A stretch of 64,000 nt of DNA, taken from the NCBI RefSeq assembly GCF_010686685.1, contig NZ_JAAGWD010000003.1:248001-312000 (forward strand), read 5' to 3'. Of this stretch, positions 29,216-46,600 are shown in pieces. Each line of letters begins with the position of its first letter. Position 1 is the first letter of the stretch. A model generated the notes under the pieces. It saw only the letters and a program-made list of their open reading frames with translations, was not told the DNA's origin and made no database searches. The DNA is from Pontibacter burrus. Its GTDB lineage: Bacteria; Bacteroidota; Bacteroidia; Cytophagales; Hymenobacteraceae. Position numbers and translations under genes: made by a program.

Positions 29216-30088
29216 TTACCCAGAAACTGGAGCGGGTTGAGTTATTTTTTTTCCGGTCATTTCTTCCAGTGTCGCAGCCGAAGTTCCCTGGCGGATGTTG
29301 TCAAAGTAGAGCACACGGGTACTTACATCTGTTTTGCCTGTACCGTTCCATGGCCACTTGTACAAACCTACCTTCCAGTACGGCAGCCTGGTATCGTTGT
29401 AGCTGTTGCCACCGCGGTGCTCGAGAATTTTAGTGCCGTTCTTCCATACTTCCACCAGGCCATCGCTGCCATAGGAGTGAATTACGTGGAAGGCAAATTG
29501 CTGCCAGGCATCTGTTGTTACCGGTCCCAGGTCGTACTGCTTCTCGCCTTCAAACGGAACTGAAGCACTTGAGATTGGCTGTGAGTTGTAGCCAATTTTC
29601 ATGATAAAGCGCCCGTTCTGAATCTGTAGTGACTTGGCCGGTGTACGCCATTCTTCGCCTGCATCAGGCACGGCGTGCCACTGCATGATCTGCTCGGCTG
29701 CCCGGTCCGGGGTGTTGTACTGAGCTGGGAAGTAGACAGCAAAGGAATACCATTGCTCCTTGTTTTGGGCATGGCCCAGGTTTAACTCAGAGCGGGTGCC
29801 TCCGGCTACTTCAGCATCGCTCTCGCGCAATTCAATGCGCAGCGACTGGCTGCCTTCATAAGCTGTGGCATTGGAGATCTGCATGGAATAGCTGTAGGCT
29901 TTTTCCAGATTAAGCCCGGAAAGGCCATCGCTTGTCTCAAACAAACGCTCGAAGAAAACATTAGCCGATGTGGCATTGGATGTGTGTACTGCGGAATTGG
30001 AAGCGTGCGTTTCTTTTGGCTTAACCCTATCACAAGAGCTAAATTGCAACAGAAATGATAAAAAAGCACAGCTAATTGATGCTTTCAT
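29216..30088 (-). CDS. Polysaccharide-lyase-like lipoprotein (heparin lyase I type), copy 1
   Basis: A 290-residue lipoprotein with signal and lipobox Cys at residue 19 (LQFSSCD). A beta-jelly-roll polysaccharide lyase domain (PF14099-like) follows: WYSFAVYFPAQY, MQWHAVPDAGEEWRTPA, WQQFAFHVIHSYGSDG, VEVWKNG and LPYWKVGLYKWPW. Residues about 32-287 come from a 768-base segment that appears identical to one in the next gene upstream, while the signal peptide and the short tail (PAPVSG) differ. It ends six bases from the GT4 gene on the other strand. The polymer cut is unknown; a uronate-containing product of this locus is an inference. Confidence 0.85.
   Translation of the reverse strand: MKASISCAFLSFLLQFSSCDRVKPKETHASNSAVHTSNATSANVFFERLFETSDGLSGLNLEKAYSYSMQISNATAYEGSQSLRIELRESDAEVAGGTRSELNLGHAQNKEQWYSFAVYFPAQYNTPDRAAEQIMQWHAVPDAGEEWRTPAKSLQIQNGRFIMKIGYNSQPISSASVPFEGEKQYDLGPVTTDAWQQFAFHVIHSYGSDGLVEVWKNGTKILEHRGGNSYNDTRLPYWKVGLYKWPWNGTGKTDVSTRVLYFDNIRQGTSAATLEEMTGKKITQPAPVSG
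29228..29995. repeat. 768-bp direct repeat, copy 1
   Basis: The bases match 30580-31347 without a difference that I could see, at a constant offset of 1352. The match covers the whole lyase domain but stops just before the signal-peptide region and at the C-terminal tail. The repeat is clearly richer in GC than its flanks. Confidence 0.9.
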
Positions 30089-30399
30089 AAAATGCTTTAA
30101 AGTTGAGATTCTTCAACTATAGTTTGATACCAGCTGTCGCAATAGCTGGTACACTAATTATCAAAAAGTGTAAAAGCTGGTTAATAAGCGTATACGGATA
30201 GAAACAGACATTTTTCTTTGAGATTACATTTTTATTAAAATTTTCTAGCGGGTGCGGTGCAGATTCTAGTAATAATAAACAAAAGCATTTTTAGATTCAT
30301 TTGATTGTAGCAAATCTACATTTAAGACATAAAAAAAGGTAGCTAGTATAACTAGCTACCTTTTCCTTATTTAAAGCTCTTAGCGTTTTAACTTATTTT
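30089..30399. other. Spacer between the two lyase genes
   Basis: AT-rich. It holds the likely promoter and leader of lyase copy 1, including AACTATAGTT at 30115-30124, and the terminator of copy 2. No reading frame of interest was seen. Confidence 0.5.
30331..30364 (-). terminator. Rho-independent terminator of lyase copy 2
   Basis: A perfect 14-base stem (AAAAGGTAGCTAGT, 30334-30347, with ACTAGCTACCTTTT, 30351-30364) and a three-base loop. On the minus strand it is followed by seven T residues. It lies 36 bases after the stop of the lyase gene. Confidence 0.85.
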
Positions 30400-31446
30400 T
30401 TAATTTTTTTTTTTGGGATGCTCCTTGTTAGGACCTTTACCATTGTTCCATTTTTTTGTTGGCGTAGGCTCTGGAGTAGGAGTTACTTCTGGCTCTGGAG
30501 TAGGAGTTACTTCTGGCTCTGGAGTAGGAGTTACTTCTGGCTCTGGAGTAGGAGTTACTTCTGGCTCTGGAGTAGGAGTTGGAGCGGGTTGAGTTATTTT
30601 TTTTCCGGTCATTTCTTCCAGTGTCGCAGCCGAAGTTCCCTGGCGGATGTTGTCAAAGTAGAGCACACGGGTACTTACATCTGTTTTGCCTGTACCGTTC
30701 CATGGCCACTTGTACAAACCTACCTTCCAGTACGGCAGCCTGGTATCGTTGTAGCTGTTGCCACCGCGGTGCTCGAGAATTTTAGTGCCGTTCTTCCATA
30801 CTTCCACCAGGCCATCGCTGCCATAGGAGTGAATTACGTGGAAGGCAAATTGCTGCCAGGCATCTGTTGTTACCGGTCCCAGGTCGTACTGCTTCTCGCC
30901 TTCAAACGGAACTGAAGCACTTGAGATTGGCTGTGAGTTGTAGCCAATTTTCATGATAAAGCGCCCGTTCTGAATCTGTAGTGACTTGGCCGGTGTACGC
31001 CATTCTTCGCCTGCATCAGGCACGGCGTGCCACTGCATGATCTGCTCGGCTGCCCGGTCCGGGGTGTTGTACTGAGCTGGGAAGTAGACAGCAAAGGAAT
31101 ACCATTGCTCCTTGTTTTGGGCATGGCCCAGGTTTAACTCAGAGCGGGTGCCTCCGGCTACTTCAGCATCGCTCTCGCGCAATTCAATGCGCAGCGACTG
31201 GCTGCCTTCATAAGCTGTGGCATTGGAGATCTGCATGGAATAGCTGTAGGCTTTTTCCAGATTAAGCCCGGAAAGGCCATCGCTTGTCTCAAACAAACGC
31301 TCGAAGAAAACATTAGCCGATGTGGCATTGGATGTGTGTACTGCGGAGGCTGTTGGTACTACCTCTTCTAAATCTTTCTTATCACAAGATGTTGAAAGAA
31401 AGCCTAGTAAAACTGGTGCTAACCAATAATGTGTTTTGAACTTCAT
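30400..31446 (-). CDS. Polysaccharide-lyase-like lipoprotein with PTPEPEV tail, copy 2
   Basis: A 348-residue lipoprotein (Cys21 in FLSTSCDKK) with the same lyase-like domain as copy 1 at residues about 34-289. It continues into a proline-rich tail of four PTPEPEVT units plus a partial one, then a basic end (KKWNNGKGPNKEHPKKKN). The tail could act as a spacer from the membrane or bind an acidic polymer; both are inference. The tail and signal regions are AT-rich and the domain core GC-rich, so the core looks inserted or converted. It has its own terminator. Confidence 0.87.
   Translation of the reverse strand: MKFKTHYWLAPVLLGFLSTSCDKKDLEEVVPTASAVHTSNATSANVFFERLFETSDGLSGLNLEKAYSYSMQISNATAYEGSQSLRIELRESDAEVAGGTRSELNLGHAQNKEQWYSFAVYFPAQYNTPDRAAEQIMQWHAVPDAGEEWRTPAKSLQIQNGRFIMKIGYNSQPISSASVPFEGEKQYDLGPVTTDAWQQFAFHVIHSYGSDGLVEVWKNGTKILEHRGGNSYNDTRLPYWKVGLYKWPWNGTGKTDVSTRVLYFDNIRQGTSAATLEEMTGKKITQPAPTPTPEPEVTPTPEPEVTPTPEPEVTPTPEPEVTPTPEPTPTKKWNNGKGPNKEHPKKKN
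30469..30580. repeat. 24-bp in-frame tandem repeat
   Basis: Four full units and about two thirds of a fifth, each beginning CTCTGGAGTAGGAG on the plus strand, code for PTPEPEVT in the lyase tail. The units look identical, and 24 is a multiple of three, so slippage would change tail length without a frameshift. Confidence 0.92.
30580..31347. repeat. 768-bp direct repeat, copy 2
   Basis: The partner of 29228-29995, in the same orientation. Recombination between the two would delete 1352 bases. It would leave one lyase gene with the copy 2 signal peptide and the copy 1 tail. Confidence 0.9.
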
Positions 31447-32111: not shown

Positions 32112-33479
32112 TCAATCTTCTACAACGTAGAAAGGAATGTTGGCTGTAGCTACCCCTTCTGTTTTATCTTTAACATAAATATAAAGCCTGTAGGGCCCTG
32201 TTTCTGATGGTGCTACAGTTTGTAGACTTATATTTTGTCTCAAATTATCTTTGGTTAAAAATAGTGATGCTGCATGGAATACCCCTTTTTTGATCACCTT
32301 ATTACTTTCTTGGTTATAGGTAGCATCAAAATGCCTTTCAGAATCATCAGCTATAATTTCCCAGAATATACTTATAGAGTCTGCTTCTACATCATGTGTT
32401 ACAATGTCTACCTTAAGACTCTCATTTGGATTCAGGTATATACTGCTGGGTTGTTCAAGCTTATTTATTGTAAGTTTATGAATAGAAGGGGCTCTGTTTA
32501 ATGGCCATTGTTTAGTCCATATAAACTGCATCCTATCTATAATATCAGTACGCTCACCTTTATCAGTAAAGAGACTAAGCCAGGTCGGAGTATATTCATT
32601 TTTCTGACCCCAATAAAATATATAAGACCCAAGGCAATTCATGCTGTCAGCCTCAATATACTGTTCGTAATACCTTTGGATAAAATCTGCTTTGTTGGTA
32701 CTTGTTAATTCAAATAGAGAATACCAATCAGTTTGTTTTTCTTCAGCCCAATAACCTAAAGCACCATATTCTGACAGTATATAAGGTCCTGTCCATCCAA
32801 GGGATCTTAATTCTTTAGAAATAGAACCTTTTTTAACATCCCTGAAAATATTGACTGATAGAATATCGATGTTTTTACAAAAGCTACTGATGTAAAAGAC
32901 CGTTATAGGGGAGATGTCCTGAAGCATGGTCGTAGTAGGGTGGTGGGGATCTAGCTCATGGATCATTTTTGCAATATCATCAATAGCCGACCAGGTATTG
33001 TTGTGCTGCAAAAAGTCGTAAGGACTTAAATGTAGCGTTGGTTCATTCCCAATACCCCACATGAGTAATGCAGGATGATCTTTATAAGTTAAAACCTCTT
33101 TTTTTAATTCTTTAAGTTGACGCTCAACTGCTTGTGGATCGTTATAGTCTAGTTCGGTTTTGGCATATGCTACCTTTAAACCGACAATCACTGTTAATCC
33201 TAATTTATGAGCTTCATCTAAGATTTGCTTTGCATTCTCTGTGCTCCAGATTCTGATAGAGTTGCCTCCAGCTGCTTTTAGAGCGTCATAATGCTGATAT
33301 CCTCCGGCTCCTTTTATAAAATAAGGTTCATTGTTTCTGTAGAGCTTGAAACTGTTATTAATGTGTTTTACTTCAATTTTTTTATTTAATGTGCCCGATG
33401 GTTCAGTTTTAGGTTTGCAACTATAACTTATTAAAAGAAACAGAAAAATAAAGAGTAATAATAGTGGATGTATTTTCAT
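32112..33479 (-). CDS. Glycosidase lipoprotein, clan GH-A (GH2/GH5-like TIM barrel)
   Basis: A 455-residue outer-membrane or periplasmic lipoprotein (lipobox Cys21, LISYSCKPK). A beta/alpha-barrel with clan GH-A hallmarks follows: the acid/base Glu in WGIGNEPTLH (E146) and the nucleophile Glu in YILSEYGALGYW (E237). The last 120 residues look like a beta-sandwich. The barrel resembles the C-terminal glycosidase domain of the giant protein encoded 28 bases upstream, so the two probably act on the same beta-glycan. It is in one operon with it. Hydrolase or transglycosidase activity cannot be told apart. Confidence 0.82.
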   Translation of the reverse strand: MKIHPLLLLFIFLFLLISYSCKPKTEPSGTLNKKIEVKHINNSFKLYRNNEPYFIKGAGGYQHYDALKAAGGNSIRIWSTENAKQILDEAHKLGLTVIVGLKVAYAKTELDYNDPQAVERQLKELKKEVLTYKDHPALLMWGIGNEPTLHLSPYDFLQHNNTWSAIDDIAKMIHELDPHHPTTTMLQDISPITVFYISSFCKNIDILSVNIFRDVKKGSISKELRSLGWTGPYILSEYGALGYWAEEKQTDWYSLFELTSTNKADFIQRYYEQYIEADSMNCLGSYIFYWGQKNEYTPTWLSLFTDKGERTDIIDRMQFIWTKQWPLNRAPSIHKLTINKLEQPSSIYLNPNESLKVDIVTHDVEADSISIFWEIIADDSERHFDATYNQESNKVIKKGVFHAASLFLTKDNLRQNISLQTVAPSETGPYRLYIYVKDKTEGVATANIPFYVVED

Positions 33480-33507: not shown

Positions 33508-36500
33508 CTAATATCTGAAGATGTTAATGGTCTTGCTGGCTGTAGTTACATTTCCGTTTTCATCATATACATATGCATATAAGCGGCAGCGATTCACCCC
33601 TTTAGGTATAGTTAGATATACTGAGCTTGAATCTTTTATTTCTTTAATATGTGCTAGCTCCTGTACATAATCATCTTTGTATAGTTTCCATTCCACCCTA
33701 AGCTTTCTGCTTGATTTAAAGTGGGCTATAAATTTGTATTCTTTACCGGGTAGTACTCTAAAGTTAGGGCCCACAATGGTAACTTTAGGAAGTGGGAAAG
33801 CTTTTGTCTGGTTTAACCATGCATTCTTCATCGCTAGTAAGGCAGGTTTTTTTCTTCCCCTGAAATCGGTTAAACCAAACCAGGTTGCCGTACCCTCATA
33901 TCTGTCTTTCCAGCTAAATGCAAAACCTCCCAGGTTATACCCTTTGTAGTTAAGAACATAGTTATGCCATTCTTTTGTATATAATTCAGCTTTCTGTATA
34001 TCGTCTTCTTCAACCAGTTCTTTGTTTTTATCTATTGTAGTATATTCCGGGTTCCAGTATCCGCTAGGGCCAAACTCTGATATAATATAAGGGCGAGATT
34101 TGTCAAATTCAGTTACTAGCGATTTTACTTTACTAATCTGCTCGTCATAGTATGAGTTTATACCTATGATATCTATAGAAGGAGCCAATTGATGATAAGA
34201 AACCAGTTCGCCTGGTAATTGCCATGAATGCTCTAAGGCTGTGATCACTGGTCTGTTAGGGTCAAGTGCATGTATGCGTTGCGCTAGTTTCTCGATCATG
34301 CTGATGTACGCCCGCCTTACAATTCCTAAGTATGGTTGGTTAAACTTCTTCTTAAGCAATCCGCTTGTTTCGTTACCCAAAGTCCAAGCCAGTACAGCCG
34401 GAGAATCTCTGAATTTAATGACTTTCTCCTCTACTAGCTCTATGTATTCCTGTACTTTTAAAGTATCTCTGTAATAGTCTACATCCGGATCAAACCAAAA
34501 TCCATATACTACTTTCAGGTCATGTTGTTCAGCTGAGGTAAGAATGTTCTTGTCATAAATGCTTGGGTGATAACGTCTGATAGTATTTCCACCCATTTCT
34601 TTAATCATCTTAAAATCGCTGTCAACCTGCTTTCTGGTTAGGGGATAATGGCCATCCCGCCAACTATGCATGGGGTTATAAGCTATACCTTTTATATAGA
34701 AGGGCTTACCCTTTACAACAAGTTGAAAATTCCCAGGCCCTCCAATAACAGATTGGTTAATTGCCACATTATGAGCAGAGGTTTGTTTTGAAAGACTTTG
34801 TAGCGTGAATACTAAATTATTTGCAGAAATCTGAGACACAGATGCAGCTATTGCTTTAGGATCTGTGATGGTCCAGTCTATAAATTGAGTCGAATCATCG
34901 GGACGCCAGTTGGTAATCCAATTTTTATCTTTGTTACTGTTGAAGAAAACGATAGACCTGACTTCTTTGTATTTATTCGCTATAGTTTGCAAAGAGGTAT
35001 TTATCCACTCTGTTTTATTACCGCCATAATCTGTAGAGCCGAACTCAGCAAGCATGACTGGCTTTTTCATTCTAAGAATATCTGACCTGAAAGGGTCATA
35101 AATTTCAGAAAAGGAACGCCATTTACCATTATCAGAAGCTTTGCCATAGTTTAAGCTCGTAATTCCTATCCAGTCTACATATTGATCCCCTGGGTAATAT
35201 TCATTAAAAGTACCTGGATCCCATGGGTTCCAGATCCAGGTTACATTATGCACTCCAAGGGCTGCAAAAGTTGAAACTACTTTTCTCCAGGCGGCTTTAT
35301 ATTCTTCAGGCGTATTCTTGCCAGTTTTAGACCAAGGGTAGGCCGGGTTATCAGGTTCGTGTGCGAATCTTATAAATACTGGCTTGTCATAAGCCCGAAT
35401 CTTCAAAGCAAATTGTTGCAGATAATCATCAAATTTCCCTTCAGAAATTGCTGCCAATCCTTTTTGTTCATACCTTAATTCAGGCCGGTCTGCACGTTCT
35501 GGGAATGAACTTACATAAGGTTCCCATGTAATCATTGGTATAGCCCCTTTTTTAGCTATTTTCGTTAATATTTCGTCTGGAAAGTTCTCTAGACTCTCAG
35601 GCCCCCAAAACTCGTATATTGATACAATATTGAATTTAGATTGTATGCTCTGCTCTATAGTTTGAAGGTGAATAAGGGAATTGTAATCTTGGATATCCGG
35701 AGAATAAAGACCGACGTAATAGCCCCCTACGTTTTTTATATTTTGTTCATTTGCTTCTATATTCTTAAAGAGGGGCAGATTACTGGCTAGATTGGCGCTA
35801 CAGCAGCAAATAAATATAAGAGGAATAAAAATAGGCGCTCCTTGTTGTAGAATGTTATAAGTGCTGGGATATATTTTATTGGTAAAATTTAGTATCGGTG
35901 TTCTGATAACACTTAAATAATTGAATCTAGTTAAGGTGCGTTTTAAACTATAAAACAGTTGATGTTGCCCAGCTAATATAAAAATGAGCAACAAAGTTGC
36001 ATTAGAAGCAGCAAAGAAAGCCATATATAAACTATAGGGGGTCCAATCGTAGGACAAACCATAATAAACAGCTCCTATACATATTATGCAGGCTATAATA
36101 TTAGGAAGACTTAATAACAAGTTATTAGTTGGTTTATCGTCTTTTGGGGTTGCGATATAGGGGACTTCTATACGGAATAAGGTATAAACGAAACCAAGGA
36201 TATGAATCCACCAAGTACCTAAAAGAGTTATACCTCCCCTTATGTGGAGCCCATTTTCATGTTTCTCAATATGCCATTTTTGAGAATACTGTCTGATGAG
36301 AATTACTGATGCTGCAAAAGGAGTTACTGAAAGCAGAAAGGTACTGAAATCAATATGAATAGGGGTAAACCCTGTAAGTAATGCAATAACAGGGATTGAA
36401 AGGTCTATTAATGTAATTATACCCGACGCGAAATGAAGCGGTAATAAAAAATAATGTAATTTTTGTCTCCAGGAAAAACTTGAGAATAGAATAGGGAACA

Positions 36501-37482
36501 CAGTCATCAGCAGCTCGAAAGTACCCCTTGACCATTTAAGCTGCTGTTTATAATAGGCAGGTAGTGTAGCAGGTACAAGTCCGTGGGTTAATATCTGGGG
36601 CACATATACCGATTCCCAACCTTCAGCATGCAATCTCATGGCAGTATGCATATCTTCTGCCAGTCCGGGAGCATGGCCACCAATTGAATCTAGTGCTTCT
36701 CTCCTAAAGGTGCAGTTTGCTCCTAATGCCTGAACCGTACCATAGCAATTCATTCCCATCATTAAGGGGCCATAGAACCCATACGTTTGTTGAGCTGCCC
36801 CTTTAGCAATAAAGCTGGCATCTGAGTTTGCATAAGCCTGTACTATTTGCACAAACCCCACTTTTTCATTTTCAAAGAAAGGCAACACAGTATCCAGAAA
36901 ATTGGGTAATGGTTGGTGATCTGGATCTAGAATTACACAAATATCACCAGTTGCTGCAGTAAATAATGCATTATTAATATTTCCTGCTTTCGCATCTTTA
37001 TTATCTTTTCTGGTAATGTAATGTATACCTAAGTCAAAACATAACCTCCGTAACCCAGGGTCGTTTCCTTCATCACACAAAAAAGAGTTATGCGGATACC
37101 TTATGTTTTTTATAGCAACTAATGTATTTCGGATCATCTCAAATGGTTCGCCCGGAACTGCTGTTGTAAGGACGTCCACAGTCCAAGTAAGAGAAGTTGC
37201 TGGGGCTTTGGTGCTACATATCGACCAGAAATGGTACCACTCAAAAAACACACGTAAAAACTTATAGCCTATTGAAATGCTGAGAAGAATAAAAAGCGGA
37301 GTGAAGCCAACTATTTCGGGATTGATGTACCATGTCAGAAAAATAACAGCACTGGCTGCTCCTAATATGATGAGAAGCCGCATAAAAGACCTCTCAAGTC
37401 TTTTATGCGGCTTAGAGACTTGTGAAATTCTCAATTTTGGAGAAGAGAATGTATGGTTATATGTAGGAGTTAATGAACTCAA
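33508..37482 (-). CDS. Cellulose-synthase-like GT2 fused to GH26-like and GH2/GH5-like domains
   Basis: A 1324-residue three-part enzyme. Residues about 35-90 hold two helices. Residues 95-330 are a processive GT2 domain with CDEGND (135-140), DPDHQP (186-191), AEDMH (275) and QQLKWSRG (313), equal to the D,D,D,Q(Q/R)xRW pattern. Five or six further helices reach residue about 565. Residues 585-880 resemble GH26 (acid/base E709 in FAHEPD, nucleophile E813 in LAEFGS). Residues 915-1225 are a GH2/GH5-like barrel (E1038 in GNETS, E1136 in SEFGPSG), and a beta-sandwich ends it. The glycosidase parts should be outside the cytoplasm. No PilZ domain is seen. The start is TTG; an ATG at 37383 with a GAGAGG site is an alternative. 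Confidence 0.88.
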   Translation of the reverse strand: MSSLTPTYNHTFSSPKLRISQVSKPHKRLERSFMRLLIILGAASAVIFLTWYINPEIVGFTPLFILLSISIGYKFLRVFFEWYHFWSICSTKAPATSLTWTVDVLTTAVPGEPFEMIRNTLVAIKNIRYPHNSFLCDEGNDPGLRRLCFDLGIHYITRKDNKDAKAGNINNALFTAATGDICVILDPDHQPLPNFLDTVLPFFENEKVGFVQIVQAYANSDASFIAKGAAQQTYGFYGPLMMGMNCYGTVQALGANCTFRREALDSIGGHAPGLAEDMHTAMRLHAEGWESVYVPQILTHGLVPATLPAYYKQQLKWSRGTFELLMTVFPILFSSFSWRQKLHYFLLPLHFASGIITLIDLSIPVIALLTGFTPIHIDFSTFLLSVTPFAASVILIRQYSQKWHIEKHENGLHIRGGITLLGTWWIHILGFVYTLFRIEVPYIATPKDDKPTNNLLLSLPNIIACIICIGAVYYGLSYDWTPYSLYMAFFAASNATLLLIFILAGQHQLFYSLKRTLTRFNYLSVIRTPILNFTNKIYPSTYNILQQGAPIFIPLIFICCCSANLASNLPLFKNIEANEQNIKNVGGYYVGLYSPDIQDYNSLIHLQTIEQSIQSKFNIVSIYEFWGPESLENFPDEILTKIAKKGAIPMITWEPYVSSFPERADRPELRYEQKGLAAISEGKFDDYLQQFALKIRAYDKPVFIRFAHEPDNPAYPWSKTGKNTPEEYKAAWRKVVSTFAALGVHNVTWIWNPWDPGTFNEYYPGDQYVDWIGITSLNYGKASDNGKWRSFSEIYDPFRSDILRMKKPVMLAEFGSTDYGGNKTEWINTSLQTIANKYKEVRSIVFFNSNKDKNWITNWRPDDSTQFIDWTITDPKAIAASVSQISANNLVFTLQSLSKQTSAHNVAINQSVIGGPGNFQLVVKGKPFYIKGIAYNPMHSWRDGHYPLTRKQVDSDFKMIKEMGGNTIRRYHPSIYDKNILTSAEQHDLKVVYGFWFDPDVDYYRDTLKVQEYIELVEEKVIKFRDSPAVLAWTLGNETSGLLKKKFNQPYLGIVRRAYISMIEKLAQRIHALDPNRPVITALEHSWQLPGELVSYHQLAPSIDIIGINSYYDEQISKVKSLVTEFDKSRPYIISEFGPSGYWNPEYTTIDKNKELVEEDDIQKAELYTKEWHNYVLNYKGYNLGGFAFSWKDRYEGTATWFGLTDFRGRKKPALLAMKNAWLNQTKAFPLPKVTIVGPNFRVLPGKEYKFIAHFKSSRKLRVEWKLYKDDYVQELAHIKEIKDSSSVYLTIPKGVNRCRLYAYVYDENGNVTTASKTINIFRY
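37375..37413. promoter_or_regulatory. 16-bp hairpin at the 5' end of the synthase-glycosidase gene
   Basis: The arms AAGCCGCATAAAAGAC (37375-37390) and GTCTTTTATGCGGCTT (37398-37413) pair perfectly around a 7-base loop. On the minus strand the second arm contains an in-frame ATG (37383-37381), and a GAGAGG ribosome-site-like sequence begins in the loop. It may control translation, or it may be chance structure in the coding sequence. Confidence 0.55.
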
Positions 37483-38052: not shown

Positions 38053-41000
38053 ATGGGCGTGAATTTTATACTCTTGAGGATAAATAGGTACTACTTACTT
38101 TGGGTTGTATTAATCTTTCTACTTATTGGCTTTGCAGCACCACTTTTAGCTAGTAAAGTTCAGTTAGGTACTTTACATAATAGTACCTTAGTAGTGAGCC
38201 TACTATCAAGTGACTATAAAAATGGTAGTGGAAGTAACAAAAACAAGCTTCTTACATCAGTAGTTGATAATTCAGGTACGAAGTTTAGCAAAGCCTTAGC
38301 TTATAATCCAATAGTGAGCAATGGTAAATCAATATTGGTTGTTAGTGGGGCTTCTAACAAATTCAGCCAGTACTTTACAGAGATACTTTTGGCTGAAGGT
38401 TTAAATAGCTATAGTTCAACTGATATTTCTTCTGTAACACTAGATGTGCTAAGCACCTACGATATAGTAATTGTAGGTAATATTCCTCTTACAGATGCAC
38501 AAGTTTCTGTTCTTAGTACATGGGTGAACGCTGGCGGCATTTTAATTGCTTCAAAACCTGATGCAAAGCTGGGAACGCTACTTGGTATATCACCTGATGG
38601 CGGCACTCTTGCTAACAGTTACCTTCTAGTAAATACTTCTACAGGACCTGGAAAGGGGATTGTTAATCAAACTATTCAGTTTCAGGGGGTAGCAGACCTG
38701 TATAATGTGAATAATGGTACAAATAAGCTGGCTACGCTTTACTCGACAGCAAGTAATTCCACCAATTATCCGGCTGTAACGGCGCGTGCTGTAGGTAACA
38801 ATGGGGGAGTAGCAGTTTCCTTTACGTATGATCTTGCACGCTCAGTAGTATATACCCGTCAGGGAAATCCGCAATGGGCTGGCCAAAAAAGGGATGGGCA
38901 GCCTGGCCCTATCCGGTCTGATGACCAGTTTTATCCAGATTGGATAGATCTCAACAAAGTAATGATTCCACAGGCTGACGAGCAACAACGGCTCTTAGCA
39001 AATATCATTACCTTATATTTACGCAAACCAGTACCACGTTTTTGGTATTTACCTAGGGGGCTTAAAGCTGCCGTTGTTATGACGGGTGATGATCATGGCA
39101 ATGGGGGAACAAAAGCACGTTTTAACCAGTACCTTCAATTAAGCGAAGACAATAGCGAACAGGCAGTTGCCGATTGGAGAGCTATTCGCGGTACGTCTTA
39201 CATATATCCACTAACACCAATTACAGATAGTGAGGCAAAATCTTTTGAGCAGCAAGGCTTCGAAGTTGCACTACATTTAAACACTAACTGTAGTAACTAT
39301 ACTCCTACTTCCCTGGAGCAGGATTTTACTACACAATTAGCCGAATTTAAAACACGTTTTCCGAGCGTTGCAGCCCCTTCCACAAACAGAACACACTGTA
39401 TTGCCTGGAGTGATTGGAGCACACAACCTCAGGTAGAGAGACCTAAAGGGATTAGATTAGACGCGAACTATTATTACTGGCCCAGCCCTTGGGTTCAGAA
39501 CAGGCCTGGTATGTTTACAGGTTCAGGTATACCGATGCGATTTACGGATCTTCAAGGTGGTTTAATTGACGTTTACCAGCTCACAACACAGATGACTGAT
39601 GAGTCAGACCAAGTATTTCCATTCACTATTGATCAGCTTTTAAACAAAGCTTTAGGAACAGAAGGGTACTATGGAGTTTTCTGTGCAAACATGCATACAG
39701 ATGCTGCTACTTCTTCTGGGTCTGACGCTATCATTGCTTCTGCCAAAGCCAGAAATGTGCCTGTAATATCATCTAAGCAATTACTCTCCTGGTTGGATGG
39801 AAGAAACGGTTCATCGTTTAGCGAAATGAGTTGGAACGGTAATGAGCTAAGTTTTACAGTGAATGTAGCGAATGGGGCACGTAATCTGGAAGGGATGTTG
39901 CCTATGACGGAAACTACCGGAAAATTAGTAGGTCTGTCTGTTAATGGAGCAGCTGCTACATATAGGATTGAAGTAATAAAGGGAATTGAATATGCATTCT
40001 TCCCATGTAGAACTGGTAACTATGTGGCTACTTACAATACTTCAGCTCCACCAAATCAAGCACCTGTTATAACTATAACTTCACCAGCCAACAATTCTAC
40101 ATTTGACGCAGATGCTTCCATTACAATCAAAACTAATGCTTCAGATACTGATGGTTCGGTAAGCAAAGTCGAGTTTTATAATGGAACCAACAAGCTAGGG
40201 GAGGATTTGACTAGCCCATATGAGTTTGCATGGACTAAAGTAGCGGCCGGGATACATGATATTACTGCTAAGGCCACAGATGATAAAGGTGCAATTACAA
40301 CTTCAGCTATAGTTCGTGTTACAGTTAATGCAGCACCTGTTATGTGCCCATGCTCTGTTTTCCGCTCTTCTGATGCACCTACTGGTATCATGTTTAATGA
40401 TGGGCAGGGCCTTCAGTTAGGTATGAAGTTTAGGTCATCTGTTAATGGCTTTATTACGGGCGTGCGATTTTATAAACAGAGTGGAAACACTAGTACCCAT
40501 ACCGGTCAGTTATATACTAGTACAGGCATGCTAGTAGGGTCTGTTGCGTTTAATAATGAAACTGCCTCTGGCTGGCAACAAGCTGAATTCTCTACACCTG
40601 TTGCTATAACGGCCAACACTACTTACATCATCTCTTACCACAGCAGCAATGGACAGTATGCAGCTACAAATCCCTACTTTACACAGGCAATATCAAATGG
40701 ACCTTTGAGAGCCCTTGTAAATGGAGAAGATGGCCCTAATGGTGTATATAAGTATTCTTCGACCCCGGCCTTCCCGAATGATAATTACCTTTCTGCTAAC
40801 TACTGGGTAGATGTAGTTTTTACTCCGGATGGAGAGCAGGGGAATAAAGCGCCGGTAATTTCAATAACAGCTCCAGCCAATAATACCTCTTTTACAGCTC
40901 CAGCTTCTATTGCAATTTCAGCTAGTGCCACCGATACCGATGGTTTAGTGAGTAAAGTAGAATTCTATAATGGTAATACTAAACTTGGGGAAGATACCGA

Positions 41001-43110
41001 AGGTAGTAATGGCTGGAATTTTACATGGACCAATGTAACGGCTGGGAACTACACACTTACAGCAAGAGCTACTGATGACAAGGGTGCAACGACGACATCC
41101 TCAGCTGTCAATATTGCAGTAAATGCAACCGATAACCGGCCCCCGGTTTTAGTAACTCCAATTTCAGATCAGTTCGCAACTATAGGAGTTGCCTATAGTT
41201 ATACTTTTAATCAAAATACATTCTCTGATCCCGATGGAGATCCCTTGACTTATACTGTTAGTCTGGCAAATGGTGCTACGCTTCCTTCATGGCTTACATT
41301 TAACAGTTCAACACGCACCTTTAGCGGCACTCCACCTGCTGGTAGTCAGGGGCAAATTAGTATCAACCTACTGGCTAGCGATGGAAGAGGGGGAACAGCC
41401 AATGATAATTTCCTTTTAACTATAGGCCAAGCTGGTAACCAAGCTCCTGTGCTAGCATCTATCGGAAATAAAAACGTAACGGAATTAAGCTTGTTAACTT
41501 TTACAGCAAGTGCCACAGATGACGGCTTGGCTGGAAATAGCCTAAGCTATTCGGTGACTAGTTCAGTTACAGAAGCAACTATAAACCCTGTAACAGGTGT
41601 TTTCTCATGGACACCAACAGAAGCTCAAGGTCCTGGAAGCTATAACTTTACTATAAAAGTTACAGATGGAGAATTAACAGATGAAGAAACTATTGTAGTA
41701 CAAGTTACAGAAGCTAATCAGGTGCCAGTACTGGCCTTTGTTGGAAACAAGGAAATAGGAGTTGGGCAGATTCTTTCATTCAGTTTACAGGGGTCAGATG
41801 CAGATTTGCCGAAACAGACACTTACATATTCAGCGAATAAATTACCTGCAGGTGCAACCCTAAATTCCGGCACTGGTCAATTCTCTTGGGCACCAACATC
41901 AAAGCAGGTAGGTAGCCATAAAATCATTTTCCGGGTTTCAGATGGAGTTTCACAGAGTAGTGAAAGTATAGTTATAACAGTAAAATCTACACCTGTGACA
42001 ACTGCTCCTGTTATTTCAGGTTTTAGTCCCTCCAGCGGAAAAGCAGGTGACCAGGTTATAATAAGTGGTACTAATTTTAATGAAGTGAGTGCTGTCTTAT
42101 TTAATGGAGTATCAGCAGCTTTCAACATAAACGGAGCAACTTCAATTACTGCGTTTGTGCCTGCAGGCGCTACAACAGGCAAGATCAGCATTACATCACC
42201 AGGCGGCACTGCAATAAGCGACGCAGTATTTACTGTATCAGGAGGAACAGGTGCTGCACCTAGTGTAAGTATTATTTCCCCATCTAATGGCTCATCATTC
42301 AATTCCCCTGCCACTATTTCTATCATAGCTAATGCATCAGATAATGATGGAGCGGTTACTATAGTTGAATTTTTTCAGGGAAGTACGAAAATAGGAGAAG
42401 ACAGGGATGGTACAGATGGTTGGAGCTTGGCCTGGAATTCTGTATCAGCAGGCAACTATGCTTTAACATGCAGAGCAACGGATAATGACGGACTAACTGC
42501 TACTTCTGGCGTAGTTAATATATCAGTTGTTAACGCCAGTTCCGGACCACCGTCCATTACAAGCTTTAGCCCAACCAGCGGACCTGTAGGTGAGCGTGTG
42601 ATCATTATTGGGAACAATTTAGCAACTGCAAATAAGGTTACTTTCGGTCCGTCTAATGCTTTATTTACTGTTAATAGTAATGGCAGTTTAGAAGCAATAG
42701 TTCCGACTGTTAATGGCAAGCTACCAACAAGTGTTAAAATCACAGTGTCTACCCCAGGTGGCAACAGTACAACAACCAATAAATTTATTATTACACCTGG
42801 AGCAACGGCAAGCATGGTTAGCACCTTACAACAACCTGCCCTAGAACAGGATAATGAACTTGCCGTTTACCCAAATCCATTTTCAGAGAAAGCAACTATC
42901 AGCATAAAATTACAACGGGATAGCGATTATGAATTAAGGTTATATGACTATAGAGGTGCGTTAGTTTCTATATTGAAGCAAGGCGACGCAAAAGCCGGAG
43001 AGCAGTATGACATTGAAGTGAATGGCAGTCAGTTAGCCAAGGGGTTATACCTGGTGCGATTACAAACTAAAACTGGTTTTAAAACAACTAAACTGGTACT
43101 GGCTAAGTGA
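38053..43110 (+). CDS. Giant secreted protein: amidotransferase-like, NodB-like deacetylase-like, Ig, DUF4082, TIG, T9SS tail
   Basis: 1685 residues. A hydrophobic N-terminal segment (YYLLWVVLIFLLIGFAAPLL) serves for export. Residues about 90-190 look like a class I amidotransferase-fold domain (ILVVSGASNKFSQYF, VNAGGILIAS). Residues about 330-590 resemble a polysaccharide deacetylase barrel (AAVVMTGDDHG, FEVALHLNTN). Then come an Ig-like domain (668), a DUF4082-like module (763-925), Ig (931), two or three cadherin/He_PIG-like domains (1027, 1129, 1221), TIG (1316), Ig (1400), TIG (1497) and a T9SS type A sorting domain (YPNPFSE near 1603, ending LVLAK). It should be exported through T9SS to the surface. 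Catalysis is unproven. Confidence 0.85.
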   Translation: MGVNFILLRINRYYLLWVVLIFLLIGFAAPLLASKVQLGTLHNSTLVVSLLSSDYKNGSGSNKNKLLTSVVDNSGTKFSKALAYNPIVSNGKSILVVSGASNKFSQYFTEILLAEGLNSYSSTDISSVTLDVLSTYDIVIVGNIPLTDAQVSVLSTWVNAGGILIASKPDAKLGTLLGISPDGGTLANSYLLVNTSTGPGKGIVNQTIQFQGVADLYNVNNGTNKLATLYSTASNSTNYPAVTARAVGNNGGVAVSFTYDLARSVVYTRQGNPQWAGQKRDGQPGPIRSDDQFYPDWIDLNKVMIPQADEQQRLLANIITLYLRKPVPRFWYLPRGLKAAVVMTGDDHGNGGTKARFNQYLQLSEDNSEQAVADWRAIRGTSYIYPLTPITDSEAKSFEQQGFEVALHLNTNCSNYTPTSLEQDFTTQLAEFKTRFPSVAAPSTNRTHCIAWSDWSTQPQVERPKGIRLDANYYYWPSPWVQNRPGMFTGSGIPMRFTDLQGGLIDVYQLTTQMTDESDQVFPFTIDQLLNKALGTEGYYGVFCANMHTDAATSSGSDAIIASAKARNVPVISSKQLLSWLDGRNGSSFSEMSWNGNELSFTVNVANGARNLEGMLPMTETTGKLVGLSVNGAAATYRIEVIKGIEYAFFPCRTGNYVATYNTSAPPNQAPVITITSPANNSTFDADASITIKTNASDTDGSVSKVEFYNGTNKLGEDLTSPYEFAWTKVAAGIHDITAKATDDKGAITTSAIVRVTVNAAPVMCPCSVFRSSDAPTGIMFNDGQGLQLGMKFRSSVNGFITGVRFYKQSGNTSTHTGQLYTSTGMLVGSVAFNNETASGWQQAEFSTPVAITANTTYIISYHSSNGQYAATNPYFTQAISNGPLRALVNGEDGPNGVYKYSSTPAFPNDNYLSANYWVDVVFTPDGEQGNKAPVISITAPANNTSFTAPASIAISASATDTDGLVSKVEFYNGNTKLGEDTEGSNGWNFTWTNVTAGNYTLTARATDDKGATTTSSAVNIAVNATDNRPPVLVTPISDQFATIGVAYSYTFNQNTFSDPDGDPLTYTVSLANGATLPSWLTFNSSTRTFSGTPPAGSQGQISINLLASDGRGGTANDNFLLTIGQAGNQAPVLASIGNKNVTELSLLTFTASATDDGLAGNSLSYSVTSSVTEATINPVTGVFSWTPTEAQGPGSYNFTIKVTDGELTDEETIVVQVTEANQVPVLAFVGNKEIGVGQILSFSLQGSDADLPKQTLTYSANKLPAGATLNSGTGQFSWAPTSKQVGSHKIIFRVSDGVSQSSESIVITVKSTPVTTAPVISGFSPSSGKAGDQVIISGTNFNEVSAVLFNGVSAAFNINGATSITAFVPAGATTGKISITSPGGTAISDAVFTVSGGTGAAPSVSIISPSNGSSFNSPATISIIANASDNDGAVTIVEFFQGSTKIGEDRDGTDGWSLAWNSVSAGNYALTCRATDNDGLTATSGVVNISVVNASSGPPSITSFSPTSGPVGERVIIIGNNLATANKVTFGPSNALFTVNSNGSLEAIVPTVNGKLPTSVKITVSTPGGNSTTTNKFIITPGATASMVSTLQQPALEQDNELAVYPNPFSEKATISIKLQRDSDYELRLYDYRGALVSILKQGDAKAGEQYDIEVNGSQLAKGLYLVRLQTKTGFKTTKLVLAK

Positions 43111-43176
43111 TGCTGCTAACCCAAGGAATCAAATGAGTAATTGATTCAATCTAACATACTTAATAAAAATTAGACA

Positions 43177-43518
43177 ATGAGATTTCTATTGATACTACTG
43201 ATAGTTTTTATGCCGTGTGCTGCCTTTGCACAGGAATTTAGGATTAAGGTTAACGGTACAGAGTTTCCTACCGACAAGATACCAGACCATGTAACCTTCC
43301 CCCAACGTGTAACCAAACTTTCAATCAAGAAAGGAATCCCAGATGCTGTGCCAAAAACATTTATAGTTCAGATTGGCGAAGAGGAGCATAGTTTTAAGAC
43401 TGATGGAACCTATCAGGAAGTTGAATTCTCACATGATGTGAGAGAGCTAGTTGTATATATTCTAAGTGAAAAACGAGACATTCAGGGAAGACCATTTGTG
43501 TTGAATAAAGCGAGATAA
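43177..43518 (+). CDS. Small secreted protein, unknown function
   Basis: A 113-residue protein with a clear signal peptide (MRFLLILLIVFMPCAAFAQ) and a short beta-rich mature part (FRIKVNGTEFP, SIKKGIPDAVPKTFIVQIG). It has no cysteine after the signal and no sorting domain. It lies between two giant T9SS proteins, 66 bases after the first. I do not recognise the family. Confidence 0.65.
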   Translation: MRFLLILLIVFMPCAAFAQEFRIKVNGTEFPTDKIPDHVTFPQRVTKLSIKKGIPDAVPKTFIVQIGEEEHSFKTDGTYQEVEFSHDVRELVVYILSEKRDIQGRPFVLNKAR

Positions 43519-43697
43519 TTACTATACGGTATTGCCGATGTTCACAATTTCTAAATGCTTTTTAAAACACTATTAGCAATTCAAATTTAATTATTCTGAC
43601 CTGGCTATGGTCGGTAACTAGAGTTAACATCAAATTTAAGATGTTTTTGAAATGAAGATATGAGCGATATTTTTTAGCATTTTTACAAAGTAGGCTA

Positions 43698-46600
43698 ATG
43701 AAAATTTTACTTACACCTGTGCGCTTATTTCACAAGTTAGCCCAAGCTTTACAATTATCACACAAATCATTTCTAACTATATTTTTTAGAAATCCATTCT
43801 ACACACAAGTTGGCAAGTATAAATTTATAGTTGTCTTTTATGTTCTATTCTTTACAGGTATCACTGCATCTTTTGGGCAGAATAATATAGTTTCTGAAAA
43901 CTCACTTCCAGGCAATCCTGCTTCAGAATGGCAGATTACTGGAGCAGGAGATCTTACTATTCAAGGATTCGCAACTGATATAAGTTATAATATTGGCGAA
44001 ACTGCCCGTTTCAAAATCAAAACAAATGCAAGAGCTTATACCATTCGCATTTACAGACTTGGATATTACCAGGGGAATGGAGCCAGGTTCCAGGGCACAG
44101 CTACAATTTCAGCAACCTTACCACAAAGTCAGCCACTTTGCCTTACTAATTCTACTACCGGCTTATTAGATTGCGGTAACTGGGCCGAATCCGCACAATG
44201 GGTTATACCGGCAAACGCTGTTTCAGGAGTTTACATTGCAAAGCTTACCCGGACCGATACCGGTGGAGCAAGTCATATTGTGTTTATTGTCAGGAACGAT
44301 AGCAGTACATCTGACTTATTTCTTCAGACTTCTGACGCTACCTGGCAGGCTTATAATGTGTATGGAGACAACAGTAATGGCAAAAGCCTTTATACAGGTG
44401 CGGGTGGTAAAGCTTCGAAAGTAAGTTATAACCGTCCATTTATAACACGTAATGGTGGCGGTGGCGGTGGGGCCGAAGAAGACTGGTTGTTTAACGCAGA
44501 GTATCCGATGATCCGGTGGCTTGAGGCAAACGGTTATAATGTGACTTATACTACCAATGTAGATAGCGATCGCCGGGGCAACCTGATTTCAAACCATAAA
44601 GTGTTTCTCTCAGTAGGGCACGACGAATATTGGTCTGGTAGGCAAAGGAATTATGTGACTGCTGCACGAAACGCAGGTATTCATTTAGCGTTCTTTAGTG
44701 GCAATGAAGTGTACTGGAAAACACGATGGGAAAATAGTATTGCTGCGAATGGAGCTGCATACCGTACTTTAGTTTGTTATAAAGAAGGAACAAGTGGCGA
44801 AAATACTTGCAGTGGAAAATGTGACCCAAGTGCTGAATGGACTGGATTATGGCGTAGTGGGTGTGAATACGTAACCGGGAATGTAATTGGGGATGGGTGT
44901 CGTCCTGAAAATGAATTATCAGGGCAAATCAGTTGGGAAGACTCTGATGGTGCCATACAAGTGCCCAGTACTCTTAAAAATCTTAGGTTTTGGCGTAACA
45001 CAAGTGTTACATCTCTTAGCAGCGGACAAACAGCTACTTTTACGCCAGCAACTATAGGTTATGAATGGAATCCCCAACAGGATAACTATAGTTCTACTTA
45101 CCCCGCTGGTAGAGTATTGCTTTCCAGAACCGTTATAGATGGTAAACTTCATCAGTTGTCGTTATACAAACATGGTAGCGGCGCCTTGGTGTTTGGCGCT
45201 GGTTCAGTACAATATTCCTGGGGTTTAGATAGTAATCACGACAGAGGTAGTTCTGCTCCAAGTTTAGCGCTTCAGCAAGCAACGGTTAATCTGTTTGCAG
45301 ACATGGGGGTACAGCCAGGAAGTTTACGTAGTGGGCTGGTACCTGCATCCGCTTCTACTGATGTTACAGGACCAACCACAGCAATATCATCTCCAACAAA
45401 CGGAGCTAATTTAGCTATTGGTACTGTAACTACTATTAGCGGTACCGCCTCTGATGCAAATGTAGTAGCAGGCGTAGAAGTATCTACAGATGGTGGTGCT
45501 ACTTGGCGATTGGCCAATGGAACTACAAACTGGAGCTTTTCATGGACACCAGCTACTCAGGGTACAAATACAATAAGGACCCGTGCTTTTGATGATTCTG
45601 GAAACATAGGAGCGCCAGTATCAATCAATGTTAATGTAACGAACAATACTAGTTTTACCTGTCCTTGCAGTGTTTTTCTGTCCGGTCAGGCGCCCTCTGA
45701 AGCACTGGAAAACGATGGTCAGGCTTTACAATTGGGTATGAAATTTCGGTCTTCTGTGCCAGGGCAGATAACAGGTGTACGCTTCTATAAGCAGGGCGGC
45801 AACACAGGCACTCATATTGGCCAACTTTATTCAAGCAGTGGAGTACTATTAGCTCAGGCAACTTTTGTCAATGAAACTACATCAGGCTGGCAACAAGTGG
45901 CTTTTCAAACACCGGTTGCTATTTCAGCGAACACTACTTACATAATCAGTTACCACAGTAGCATCGGTTACTACTCAGCCAGTAGCACAGGCTTTAACCA
46001 ACCTGTTACCAATGGCCCGCTTACCGGACTGCAAAATGGCACAGATGGAGGCAATGGTGTTTATCTTTACACAAATACACCTGCCTTTCCAAATAATACG
46101 TACCAAGCCAGTAACTATTGGGTGGATGTTGTATTTGTGACTGATGGCGGGGGAAGCAGCAATCAGCCACCAACTGTTGCCCTCACATCTCCAACAAATA
46201 ACACAATCTATACTGCACCGGCTAATATACAGCTGTCAGCTAATGCTTCTGATTCTGATGGTTCCATTGCCAAAGTTGAATTCTATAATGGAACTACTAA
46301 GCTAGGTGAAGATACGAGCACACCTTATAGTTATAGTTGGAGTAATGTAGCAGCAGGTACATATCAATTCACGGCTCGTGCTACAGATAATAGTGGAGCA
46401 ACTACAGCGTCTGCACCAGTTACTATCACAGTGAATAGCGCGCCAACTACGACGCCAGCAATCAACTCTTTTACACCACTTTCTGGTCCTGTAGGTACCT
46501 TGGTAACTTTACAGGGCAGTAACCTGAGCGGAGCCAGCAAGGTTACATTTGGGCCTTCAACAGCCCAGATTGTATCTAATACTGCAACTGAAATAAAAGC

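Follow-up and report, generated by a model that had tools for sequence, protein, structure and literature searches.

The window analysed here, a stretch of 64,000 nucleotides from Pontibacter burrus, contains on its reverse strand an open reading frame (ORF) in which a GT2 synthase domain is followed by two glycosidase barrels, one of GH26 and one of GH158 type. The fusion described in the initial annotation is real, and the arrangement is not unique to the P. burrus genome. From sequence and modelled structure we infer the product, location and activity of the protein, which with a probability of roughly 55 % is an inner-membrane synthase that makes a beta-glucan processively and edits its own product, cutting or transglycosylating the chain in the periplasm. 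The features are as follows.

33508..37482, reverse strand: GT2-GH26-GH158 fusion synthase, 1324 amino acids (open frame, domains, relatives of the same architecture)
37228..37413, reverse strand: two N-terminal transmembrane helices, approximately residues 24-85 (hydropathy; modelled helices 24-52 and 61-85)
36493..37200, reverse strand: GT2 catalytic domain, residues 95-330 (Pfam/NCBIfam, BcsA sequence match, model)
35767..36450, reverse strand: transmembrane region, residues 345-572 (hydropathy, model)
34843..35730, reverse strand: GH26 barrel, residues 585-880, acid/base E709, nucleophile E813 (Pfam, CtLic26A match, fold)
33523..34749, reverse strand: GH158-like barrel and C-terminal strand-rich (Ig-like) part, residues 912-1320 (9oro/6pal, fold, secondary structure of the model)
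32112..33479, reverse strand: separate GH158 lipoprotein, 455 amino acids, E146/E237 (9oro, E 1e-67)
30400..31446, reverse strand: PF14099 (PL20-like) lyase, neighbour only (Pfam and closer search)
29216..30088, reverse strand: PF14099 (PL20-like) lyase, neighbour only (Pfam and closer search)

The fusion ORF corresponds to 1324 codons with a TTG start and no internal stops. The start codon is uncertain, and the matches of relatives begin at approximately residues 13-35 of the query. Relatives encoded in a single frame span approximately residues 21-35 to 1318-1321 in families f1, f5, f15, f19 and f20 of the order, and also in named genomes. A survey for the same fusion, as proposed in the initial annotation, found single ORFs with all three domains across several Bacteroidota classes as well as in Balneolota; other architectures among the relatives were GT2 alone, GT2 with GH26 and GT2 with GH158. 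When the named genomes were scanned with the single protein, 13 stretches matched and no relatives were obtained; the scan with alignment A1 gave 488 relatives in 526 stretches, and the best 80, a set biased to full-length fusions, were studied. The 141 distinct GT2 ORFs include fragments (L003, two of L034 and one of L038). The tree, a quick search with long reference branches, leaves out these four fragments as well as L072. L058, which ends at a contig edge, was counted as GT2 only.

All four GT2 signatures claimed earlier were located in the sequence, namely D137 (CDEG), D186 and D188 (LDPDH), D277 (AEDM) and QQLKW at residues 313-317, the last having lysine where the classical motif QxxRW has arginine. 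Pfam GT2 models match within residues 115-366, the sequence is similar to BcsA (E about 4e-33) and the modelled domain matches the BcsA structure 4p00 (E 9e-25). The protein shares its GT2 fold and transmembrane layout with BcsA, for which the cellulase BcsZ is a separate protein. Unlike BcsA, it has QQLKW, its glycosidases are fused and no PilZ domain is found among its Pfam matches at E 0.01, an absence already pointed out in the initial annotation; moreover, bcsB, bcsC and bcsZ are found neither among the annotated neighbours in the window nor in the three neighbour clusters that occur in at least eight of the 80 named loci. A cellulose synthase proper was considered and rejected, the NCBIfam model TIGR03030 scoring 168 bits against a cut-off of 699 and PilZ not being matched. 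The nearest annotated plasmid GT2 proteins are distant, with 25.8-30.5 % identity among the matches listed (40 of 509) that cover more than half of the query. The linkage formed cannot be read from a GT2 sequence.

By sequence and model, the chain has a BcsA-like GT2 core and a transmembrane region, followed by the two barrels. The last helix of the transmembrane region (approximately residues 549-566) leads into the GH26 barrel. The loop of residues 505-548 contains five Lys or Arg and no Asp or Glu, and is predicted by the positive-inside rule to be cytosolic; the GT2 catalytic domain is probably also cytosolic. Because the final transmembrane helix comes after this positively charged loop, both barrels would be periplasmic. 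This placement draws on charge, hydropathy and the helices of the model; the pTM is 0.64 for the model of residues 1-900.

The first barrel belongs to GH26, a family of retaining glycosidases within which mannanases and xylanases also fall. PF02156 matches residues 699-798 (E 6e-12, 45.9 bits against a cut-off of 20.2), and the best match in both sequence and fold is the lichenase CtLic26A (Endoglucanase H; E 3e-32, approximately 28 % identity). E709 and E813 align with the catalytic Glu residues of CtLic26A, in agreement with the GH26-like barrel and conserved Glu pair first proposed. Among solved structures the barrel is closest to CtLic26A and far from the mannanases, and a 28-row profile of residues 575-1324 found CtLic26A at about 1e-39; of the other GH26 entries a beta-1,3-xylanase came next at 4e-11, and the rest were at 7e-10 or weaker. 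CtLic26A differs from the P. burrus barrel in not being fused to a synthase.

The second barrel, initially annotated as GH2/GH5-like, is reassigned to GH158 on the basis of sequence and fold matches, and the lipoprotein is assigned to GH158 by sequence. PF02836 (GH2_C) matches residues 920-1180 (E 1e-9), and the solved GH158 structures 9oro and 6pal match at 2.6e-24 and 1.1e-23, respectively. For the model of residues 575-1324 (pLDDT 89) the top Foldseek match is BuGH158 (6pal; E 6e-31, TMt 0.77), and the model contains a barrel with a C-terminal Ig-like domain, as in the solved GH158 enzymes. The acid/base E1038, preceded by N1037, and the nucleophile E1136 are kept, as had been noted. BuGH158 is an endo-beta-1,3-glucanase that retains the anomeric configuration and needs N136, E137 and E220 for activity (PMC7157763). 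The P. burrus barrel resembles BuGH158 and GH158(Pro) in its Ig-like domain and in its Asn-Glu and Glu catalytic positions (PMC7157763), whereas those two are separate enzymes and P. burrus has one copy fused to the synthase and one alongside.

The copy alongside is the glycosidase lipoprotein already recognised in the initial annotation as related, and its family is that of the second barrel. Its gene sits 28 bases downstream of the fusion gene and codes for a lipobox-like leader (...ISYSC). Similar leaders occur in 67 of 132 separate GH158 ORFs, 59 of the 67 having none or one acidic residue among the next five, a crude look that is not decisive. Of the 80 named loci, 75 have a separate GH158 gene in the examined flank, and in the genus 26 of the 27 unfused GT2 genes have one within 1.5 kb (the exception is L010). 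GT2 and GH158 thus remain neighbours irrespective of whether they are fused. GH26 is found as a separate ORF beside GT2 in eight genomes of the order sample (G127, G266, G325, G322, G358, G271, G265 and G390).

In the mechanism that we favour, the GT2 domain would elongate a glucan from UDP-glucose and extrude it, and the GH26 and GH158 barrels would meet the emerging chain on the periplasmic side. As both families retain the anomeric configuration, the barrels could either hydrolyse the chain, setting its length and releasing it, or transglycosylate it, so that it is re-joined, branched or cyclised. The GH158 lipoprotein would then trim or recycle the released glucan.

The coupling of making and cutting in one chain, as originally suggested, is plausible for the P. 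burrus protein, all four Glu residues of its two barrels being intact, but most of its relatives differ in the fused GH158: both barrels are intact in only 21 of 95 triple-domain ORFs, the P. burrus protein among them, while in 61 of the 95 the fused GH158 lacks its Glu pair and GH26 keeps its own. The 61 include L116 and L153, which count as broken in GH158 because their contigs end there. In total, the GH158 pair is missing from 64 of the 95 triples, the GH26 pair from 13 and both from three (L051, L056 and L057). The GH26 pair is also scored as broken in 10 of 11 GT2+GH26 ORFs, among them a fragment of the G040 gene; one of the L034 fragments is counted in this class. The GH158 pair is scored as broken in both GT2+GH158 ORFs, so that 66 of 97 fused GH158 barrels lack it. 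Degeneration of the fused barrels is thus frequent enough that fused activity is not needed everywhere, and across the family the fused GH158 may serve to bind or guide the glycan. If this held for both barrels, they would be mainly pseudo-glycosidases that bind, guide and hold the emerging chain, the real cutting being left to the separate GH158 lipoprotein. The separate GH158 ORFs fit such a division of labour, the two Glu residues being kept in 129 and 130, respectively, of 132 distinct ORFs (fragments, two of L171 and one of L170, included), as does the fused GH6 of tunicate CesA, which has also lost its catalytic Asp (PMC7464555). We nevertheless consider it unlikely, given the four Glu residues kept in P. 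burrus and at least one intact barrel in each of the 81 GT2 ORFs from the named loci, although these sequences are related to one another and were selected in favour of the best full-length matches. In addition, the sequences scored as broken include 11 in which the nucleophile is present and the acid/base Glu is replaced by Asp.

Since the second barrel and the lipoprotein belong to GH158, a beta-1,3-glucanase family, a beta-glucan is a likelier product of the proposed self-editing synthase than a generic polymer, and GH26 and GH158 together suggest that this glucan contains beta-1,3 links. If GH26 acts like CtLic26A, the product would be a mixed-linkage beta-(1,3;1,4)-glucan; if GH158 is the better guide, the links would be entirely or mostly beta-1,3. 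The probability given above applies to a beta-glucan of either type. Laminarin is strongly preferred by the GH158 enzymes characterised so far, activity on mixed-linkage glucan being approximately 100-fold lower for BuGH158 and very poor for BfGH158 (PMC7157763). This makes mixed-linkage glucan less likely as a substrate shared by both barrels, although GH158(Pro) was crystallised with a mixed-linkage oligosaccharide (9p2f).

It is doubtful that the polymer is something other than a beta-glucan, such as a mannan or a xylan-like or arabinose-containing polysaccharide, for which the specificities of GH26 and GH158 would have to be shifted. A GT2 gene and a GH26 gene are also kept together on pSymB of Sinorhizobium meliloti (L174), in a run with UDP-GlcA decarboxylase and galE genes that we take to be the cluster for an arabinose-containing polysaccharide. 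The S. meliloti GH26 has 28 % identity with that of P. burrus over 223 columns, and the GT2 sequence does not reveal the linkage. However, the S. meliloti GH26 has no match to CtLic26A at E 0.001, and in P. burrus two independent glycosidase families indicate beta-1,3- or beta-1,3/1,4-glucan. The S. meliloti cluster also differs in having separate genes, nucleotide-sugar genes and no GH158 in the stretch examined.

Exopolysaccharide (EPS)-type genes lie at approximately 8.5-29 kb of the window, raising the possibility, to which we give little credence, that the synthase serves this neighbouring Wzx/Wzc-type cluster and makes a polymer that is secreted to form a capsule or biofilm matrix. Wza-like cluster members were found in nine and Wzc-like members in seven of the 80 named loci, as raw counts over the examined flank, with one member profile-tested; except for L153, these loci have fusions of the intact-GH158 type. 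Against a role in this cluster, its genes in the window are on the strand opposite to the fusion with the two lyases intervening, and the examined flank of 71 of the 80 loci has no Wza-like cluster member. The presence of Wza/Wzc-type genes near some loci would be more in keeping with a secreted product than with one kept in the periplasm. The two lyases, mentioned in the initial annotation as adjacent, both match the polysaccharide lyase family PF14099, and their nearest solved structure is glucuronan lyase A (about 1e-6). They are not counted in the unit because they do not belong to any of the three neighbour clusters that recur in eight or more of the 80 named loci.

The last alternative, an artefact of joined genes or of a non-catalytic C-terminus, is already refuted, as no point in its favour was found and a frameshift or assembly error is ruled out by the unbroken ORF and by the recurrence of the architecture in a single frame across several families and named genomes, together with the confident model and the conserved catalytic residues.

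Synthase-glycosidase fusions as such are already known (GH17-GT2, PMC10237404; tunicate GT2-GH6, PMC7464555), and the P. burrus protein differs in its GH families and, relative to GH17-GT2, in the reversed domain order. The pseudomonad 'Orphan' and NdvB GH17-GT2 proteins are proposed cyclic beta-1,3-glucan synthases and, like the P. burrus protein, combine a BcsA-like GT2 on the cytosolic side and a membrane-spanning region with a glycosidase barrel, for which editing of the glucan in the periplasm has been proposed (PMC10237404). Unlike them, with their single GH17 placed first, P. burrus has GH26 and GH158 following GT2, has a separate GH158 lipoprotein and is from another phylum; Pfam matched no GH17 domain in the fusion protein, which would thus resemble the proposed GH17-GT2 glucan synthases in its mode of action but is not a member of their family. 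Tunicate CesA has a GT2 with a fused GH6 lacking a catalytic residue, and a further GH6 is encoded by a gene of its own (PMC7464555). The separate same-family gene is common to both systems, and the catalytic loss matches that of the fused GH158 in most triples counted; in contrast to the animal GH6 protein, P. burrus has GH26 and GH158, keeps the catalytic residues in both fused barrels and has no GH6 domain matched by Pfam. No description of a GT2-GH26 or GT2-GH158 synthase was found in the literature searched, which covered few subscription papers.

More tentatively, and at somewhat less than even odds, the family may represent a widespread Bacteroidota/Balneolota pathway for beta-1,3- or beta-(1,3;1,4)-glucan, with a self-editing GT2 whose GH26 and GH158 barrels lie in the periplasm, and a free GH158 in addition. 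One barrel would be catalytic in most lineages and the other a pseudoenzyme guiding the chain. The product would be a periplasmic glucan that is cut, cyclised or decorated with phospho groups, a counterpart of the osmoregulated periplasmic glucans that evolved independently of them. If so, many soil, marine and plant-associated Bacteroidota would make beta-glucan by a route without description in the literature searched, and synthesis and editing would be coupled within one polypeptide. The family offers a natural series on the role of a fused glycosidase, with barrels absent, separate, or fused with or without catalytic residues, and such enzymes might be used for glucans of defined length or linkage.

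Two polytopic PF00884-type proteins were profile-tested, and LtaS and phosphoglycerol transferases are among their matches, which would be in line with decoration of the glucan in the periplasm; they score equally with arylsulfatase models, all scores being far below the curated cut-offs. Such a protein occurs near the fusion in eight of the 80 named loci, in six of them on the same strand and directly after it or within approximately 0.6 kb.

The open reading frame at window positions 33508-37482 on the minus strand, hereafter called the window fusion, runs through 1324 amino acids with zero internal stops, neither frameshifted nor split. The initial annotation had described it as a GT2 synthase lacking PilZ, joined to GH26-like and GH2/GH5-like glycosidases. 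Its N-terminal part matched Pfam GT2 models (PF13632 at 3e-23 among them), its nearest solved structure was BcsA (4e-33), and no PilZ match was found in the Pfam search; the NCBIfam cellulose-synthase model matched at 2e-49, far below its cut-off. The first barrel was likewise confirmed as GH26 (PF02156, 6e-12), with 'Endoglucanase H' (CtLic26A) as nearest solved structure (3e-32 for the barrel searched by itself, 3-5e-31 when the whole protein was the query). With a 28-member family profile, the gap widened between CtLic26A, the top GH26 match at about 1e-39, and the other GH26 entries (beta-1,3-xylanase at 4e-11, others at 7e-10 or weaker). The second barrel matched a GH2-type barrel in Pfam (PF02836, 1e-9), but its nearest solved structures were GH158 enzymes (9oro 2.6e-24, 6pal 1.1e-23), and on these matches it is assigned to GH158 rather than GH2/GH5. 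The earlier impression is explained by GH158 belonging to clan GH-A, its structure being compared with GH2 and GH5 in PMC7157763.

The surrounding features are as follows.

8567-29209: exopolysaccharide-type cluster (oxidoreductase, two DegT aminotransferases, several GTs, epimerase, flippase-type protein (PF01943), asparagine synthase)
17786-18571: putative Wza-like protein (our reading)
18583-20898: putative Wzc-like protein (our reading)
29216-31446: pair of adjacent PF14099 lyases, closest to glucuronan lyase A among solved structures (about 1e-6)
32112-33479, minus strand: separate GH158 lipoprotein
33508-37482, minus strand: window fusion
38053-47000: two large proteins that combine Por secretion tails with DUF4082 and Ig-type domains; DMFA2_C in one

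The longer lyase carries an unusual tail (about residues 286-329) matching repeat-type models. The lipoprotein, correctly recognized earlier as a related glycosidase, is GH158 over its entire length (1e-67).

Both fused barrels keep their glutamate pairs, as had been claimed: E709 (acid/base) and E813 (nucleophile) in alignment with CtLic26A, and E1038 (preceded by N1037) and E1136 in alignment with GH158 members. The lipoprotein has E146 and E237. In BuGH158, alanine substitution at N136, E137 or E220 abolished activity (PMC7157763).

A confident model of residues 575-1324 (pLDDT 89, pTM 0.89) gave BuGH158 6pal as top Foldseek match (E 6e-31) and CtLic26A 2vi0 as best GH26 match (E 5e-19), while a model of residues 1-900 (pLDDT 86, pTM 0.64) matched BcsA 4p00 (E 9e-25) and CtLic26A (4e-18). 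Two helices precede the GT2 domain and several follow it; the 44-residue stretch 505-548 after them contains 5 K/R and 0 D/E, and the last helix (549-566) separates it from GH26. With GT2 and this stretch in the cytosol, both barrels would be periplasmic.

Besides the fusion, the own genome encodes another GT2 that is unfused (55 % identical) and accompanied by a divergent GH158 gene. Some match was found in 48 of the 59 genomes that were searched as relatives, own included. Unfused GT2s of about 600 amino acids occurred in 26 of 36 same-genus genomes, and in 26 of 27 loci (these and the own) a GH158 ORF lay within 1.5 kb, always on the opposite strand, the sole exception being L010, with none at that distance. 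Pontibacter vulgaris and the same-genus genome G345 carry identical fusions. Matches at 1e-30 were found in 81 of 390 genomes of the order sample, a few through GH158 alone, and at 1e-40 in 33 of 395 of the phylum sample, 16 of them better than 1e-80. A named scan gave 488 relatives among 526 pattern stretches; the best 80 of the 488 (the named loci) comprise 77 from Bacteroidota and 3 from Balneolota (Cytophagia 23, Chitinophagia 16, Flavobacteriia 14, Sphingobacteriia 9, Bacteroidia 6, Balneolia 3, unassigned 9).

Domain scans, a survey the initial annotation had proposed, showed that the one-ORF GT2+GH26+GH158 form recurs (about 1160-1360 amino acids if complete), alongside GT2 alone (about 600), GT2+GH26 (about 820-915) and GT2+GH158 (984 and 995); coordinates placed separate GT2 and GH26 ORFs adjacently in 8 genomes of the order sample. 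One relative (L038:7487-11489, in G040, a one-contig 9 Mb genome) is apparently split over several reading frames.

A separate GH158 gene is present in 75 of the 80 named loci: on the same strand, 5' and within 400 bases in 49, divergent within 400 bases in 19, and otherwise arranged in 7 (beyond 400 bases in 4 of the 7). None was found in L096, L098, L110, L116 and L125, the flanks of L110 and L116 being short. Among the other 605 ORFs of 180 amino acids or more in these loci only three clusters reached at least 8 loci (11, 9 and 8) and none was as constant; the recurrent unit is therefore two genes, GT2 synthase and separate GH158. In Chitinophaga japonensis (L128:1704-11987) the pair of fusion and separate GH158 is present twice, in tandem.

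The fused barrels are less conserved than the separate enzyme. Among 95 distinct triple ORFs, both barrels have the canonical glutamate pair (intact) in 21, including the window fusion, only GH158 is broken in 61, only GH26 in 10 and both in 3 (L051, L056, L057), L116 and L153 being scored GH158-broken solely through contig ends. Of the 11 GT2+GH26 forms, 10 have a broken GH26 (one of the 10, L034, a fragment), and GH158 is broken in both GT2+GH158 forms. Within the named loci, the 81 GT2 ORFs divide into 19 with both intact, 51 with GH158 broken, 10 with GH26 broken, 0 with both broken, and one GT2+GH26 with intact GH26. The two glutamates were kept in 129 and 130 of 132 separate GH158 ORFs, which marks these as the constant enzyme; the fused barrel is often retained as a fold without catalytic residues.

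In a GT2 tree, made by a quick method and with long reference branches, most broken-GH158 forms fell in one clade of 62 rows (SH-aLRT 100), containing 58 of the 60 GH26-intact/GH158-broken rows, both GT2+GH158 rows and 2 of 3 both-broken rows; L006, L116 and L051 lay outside. The window fusion grouped with L039 (same family) and L116 (a Chitinophagaceae MAG; support 97). All four references (E. coli BcsA, Agrobacterium cellulose synthase, a Bradyrhizobium GT2 beside an HlyD gene and the S. meliloti pSymB GT2) were outside the family (support 97).

The glycosidase modules are the sole pointer to the product. A lichenase-like GH26 with a beta-1,3-glucanase-like GH158 suggests a polymer with beta-1,3 links, beta-1,4 links being optional, although the two do not fully agree, since BuGH158 and BfGH158 acted poorly on mixed-linkage glucan (PMC7157763). 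Moreover, S. meliloti pSymB (L174:3971-7938) has a run of GT2, GH26 and two DUF995 genes beside UDP-glucuronic acid decarboxylase and galE, so GH26 pairing alone does not imply glucan. Most likely, the fusion makes a beta-glucan, which would be extruded and edited in place, the linkage, location and activity being predicted.

A close functional precedent is provided by the pseudomonad Orphan/NdvB GH17-GT2 proteins, proposed in PMC10237404 to make and cyclise beta-1,3-glucan, to which an MdoB-like enzyme is proposed to add phosphoglycerol. GT2-glycosidase fusions are known in two other forms, this GH17-GT2 and tunicate GT2-GH6 (PMC7464555), and a literature search largely confined to papers outside subscription found no GT2-GH26 or GT2-GH158 synthase. 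The fusion is less startling as a widespread family than as a single odd gene, and the family merits attention for its wide distribution, its modularity and its testability.

A possible parallel to the MdoB-like step is a PF00884-type neighbour in 8 of the 80 named loci (L100, L101, L111, L125, L142, L146, L152, L169), of 813-843 amino acids with a run of transmembrane helices, split into two ORFs in L101. In 6 of the 8 the two genes share a strand, with the neighbour immediately following the fusion or no more than about 0.6 kb from it. The L100 member matched PF00884 at 4e-43; in NCBIfam the L100 and L111 members matched LtaS (2e-23 and 2e-22), arylsulfatase (3e-23 and 5e-24), phosphoglycerol transferase I (about 1e-13 and 1e-12) and OPG glycerophosphotransferase (about 1e-6), every score far under the curated cut-off, so that sulfatase activity is as possible as phosphoglycerol transfer. 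No such gene is among those annotated near the window fusion, and elsewhere the own genome has distant matches only (best 9e-28, in the PF00884 part). A region of about 150 residues precedes the helices of these neighbours.

A further protein, of 568-602 amino acids with one N-terminal hydrophobic helix, lies near the fusion in L130 (5837-7591) and ten other named loci; the one member examined matched neither Pfam at 1e-6 nor NCBIfam at 1e-3, and two weak matches to the GH26 profile were obtained.
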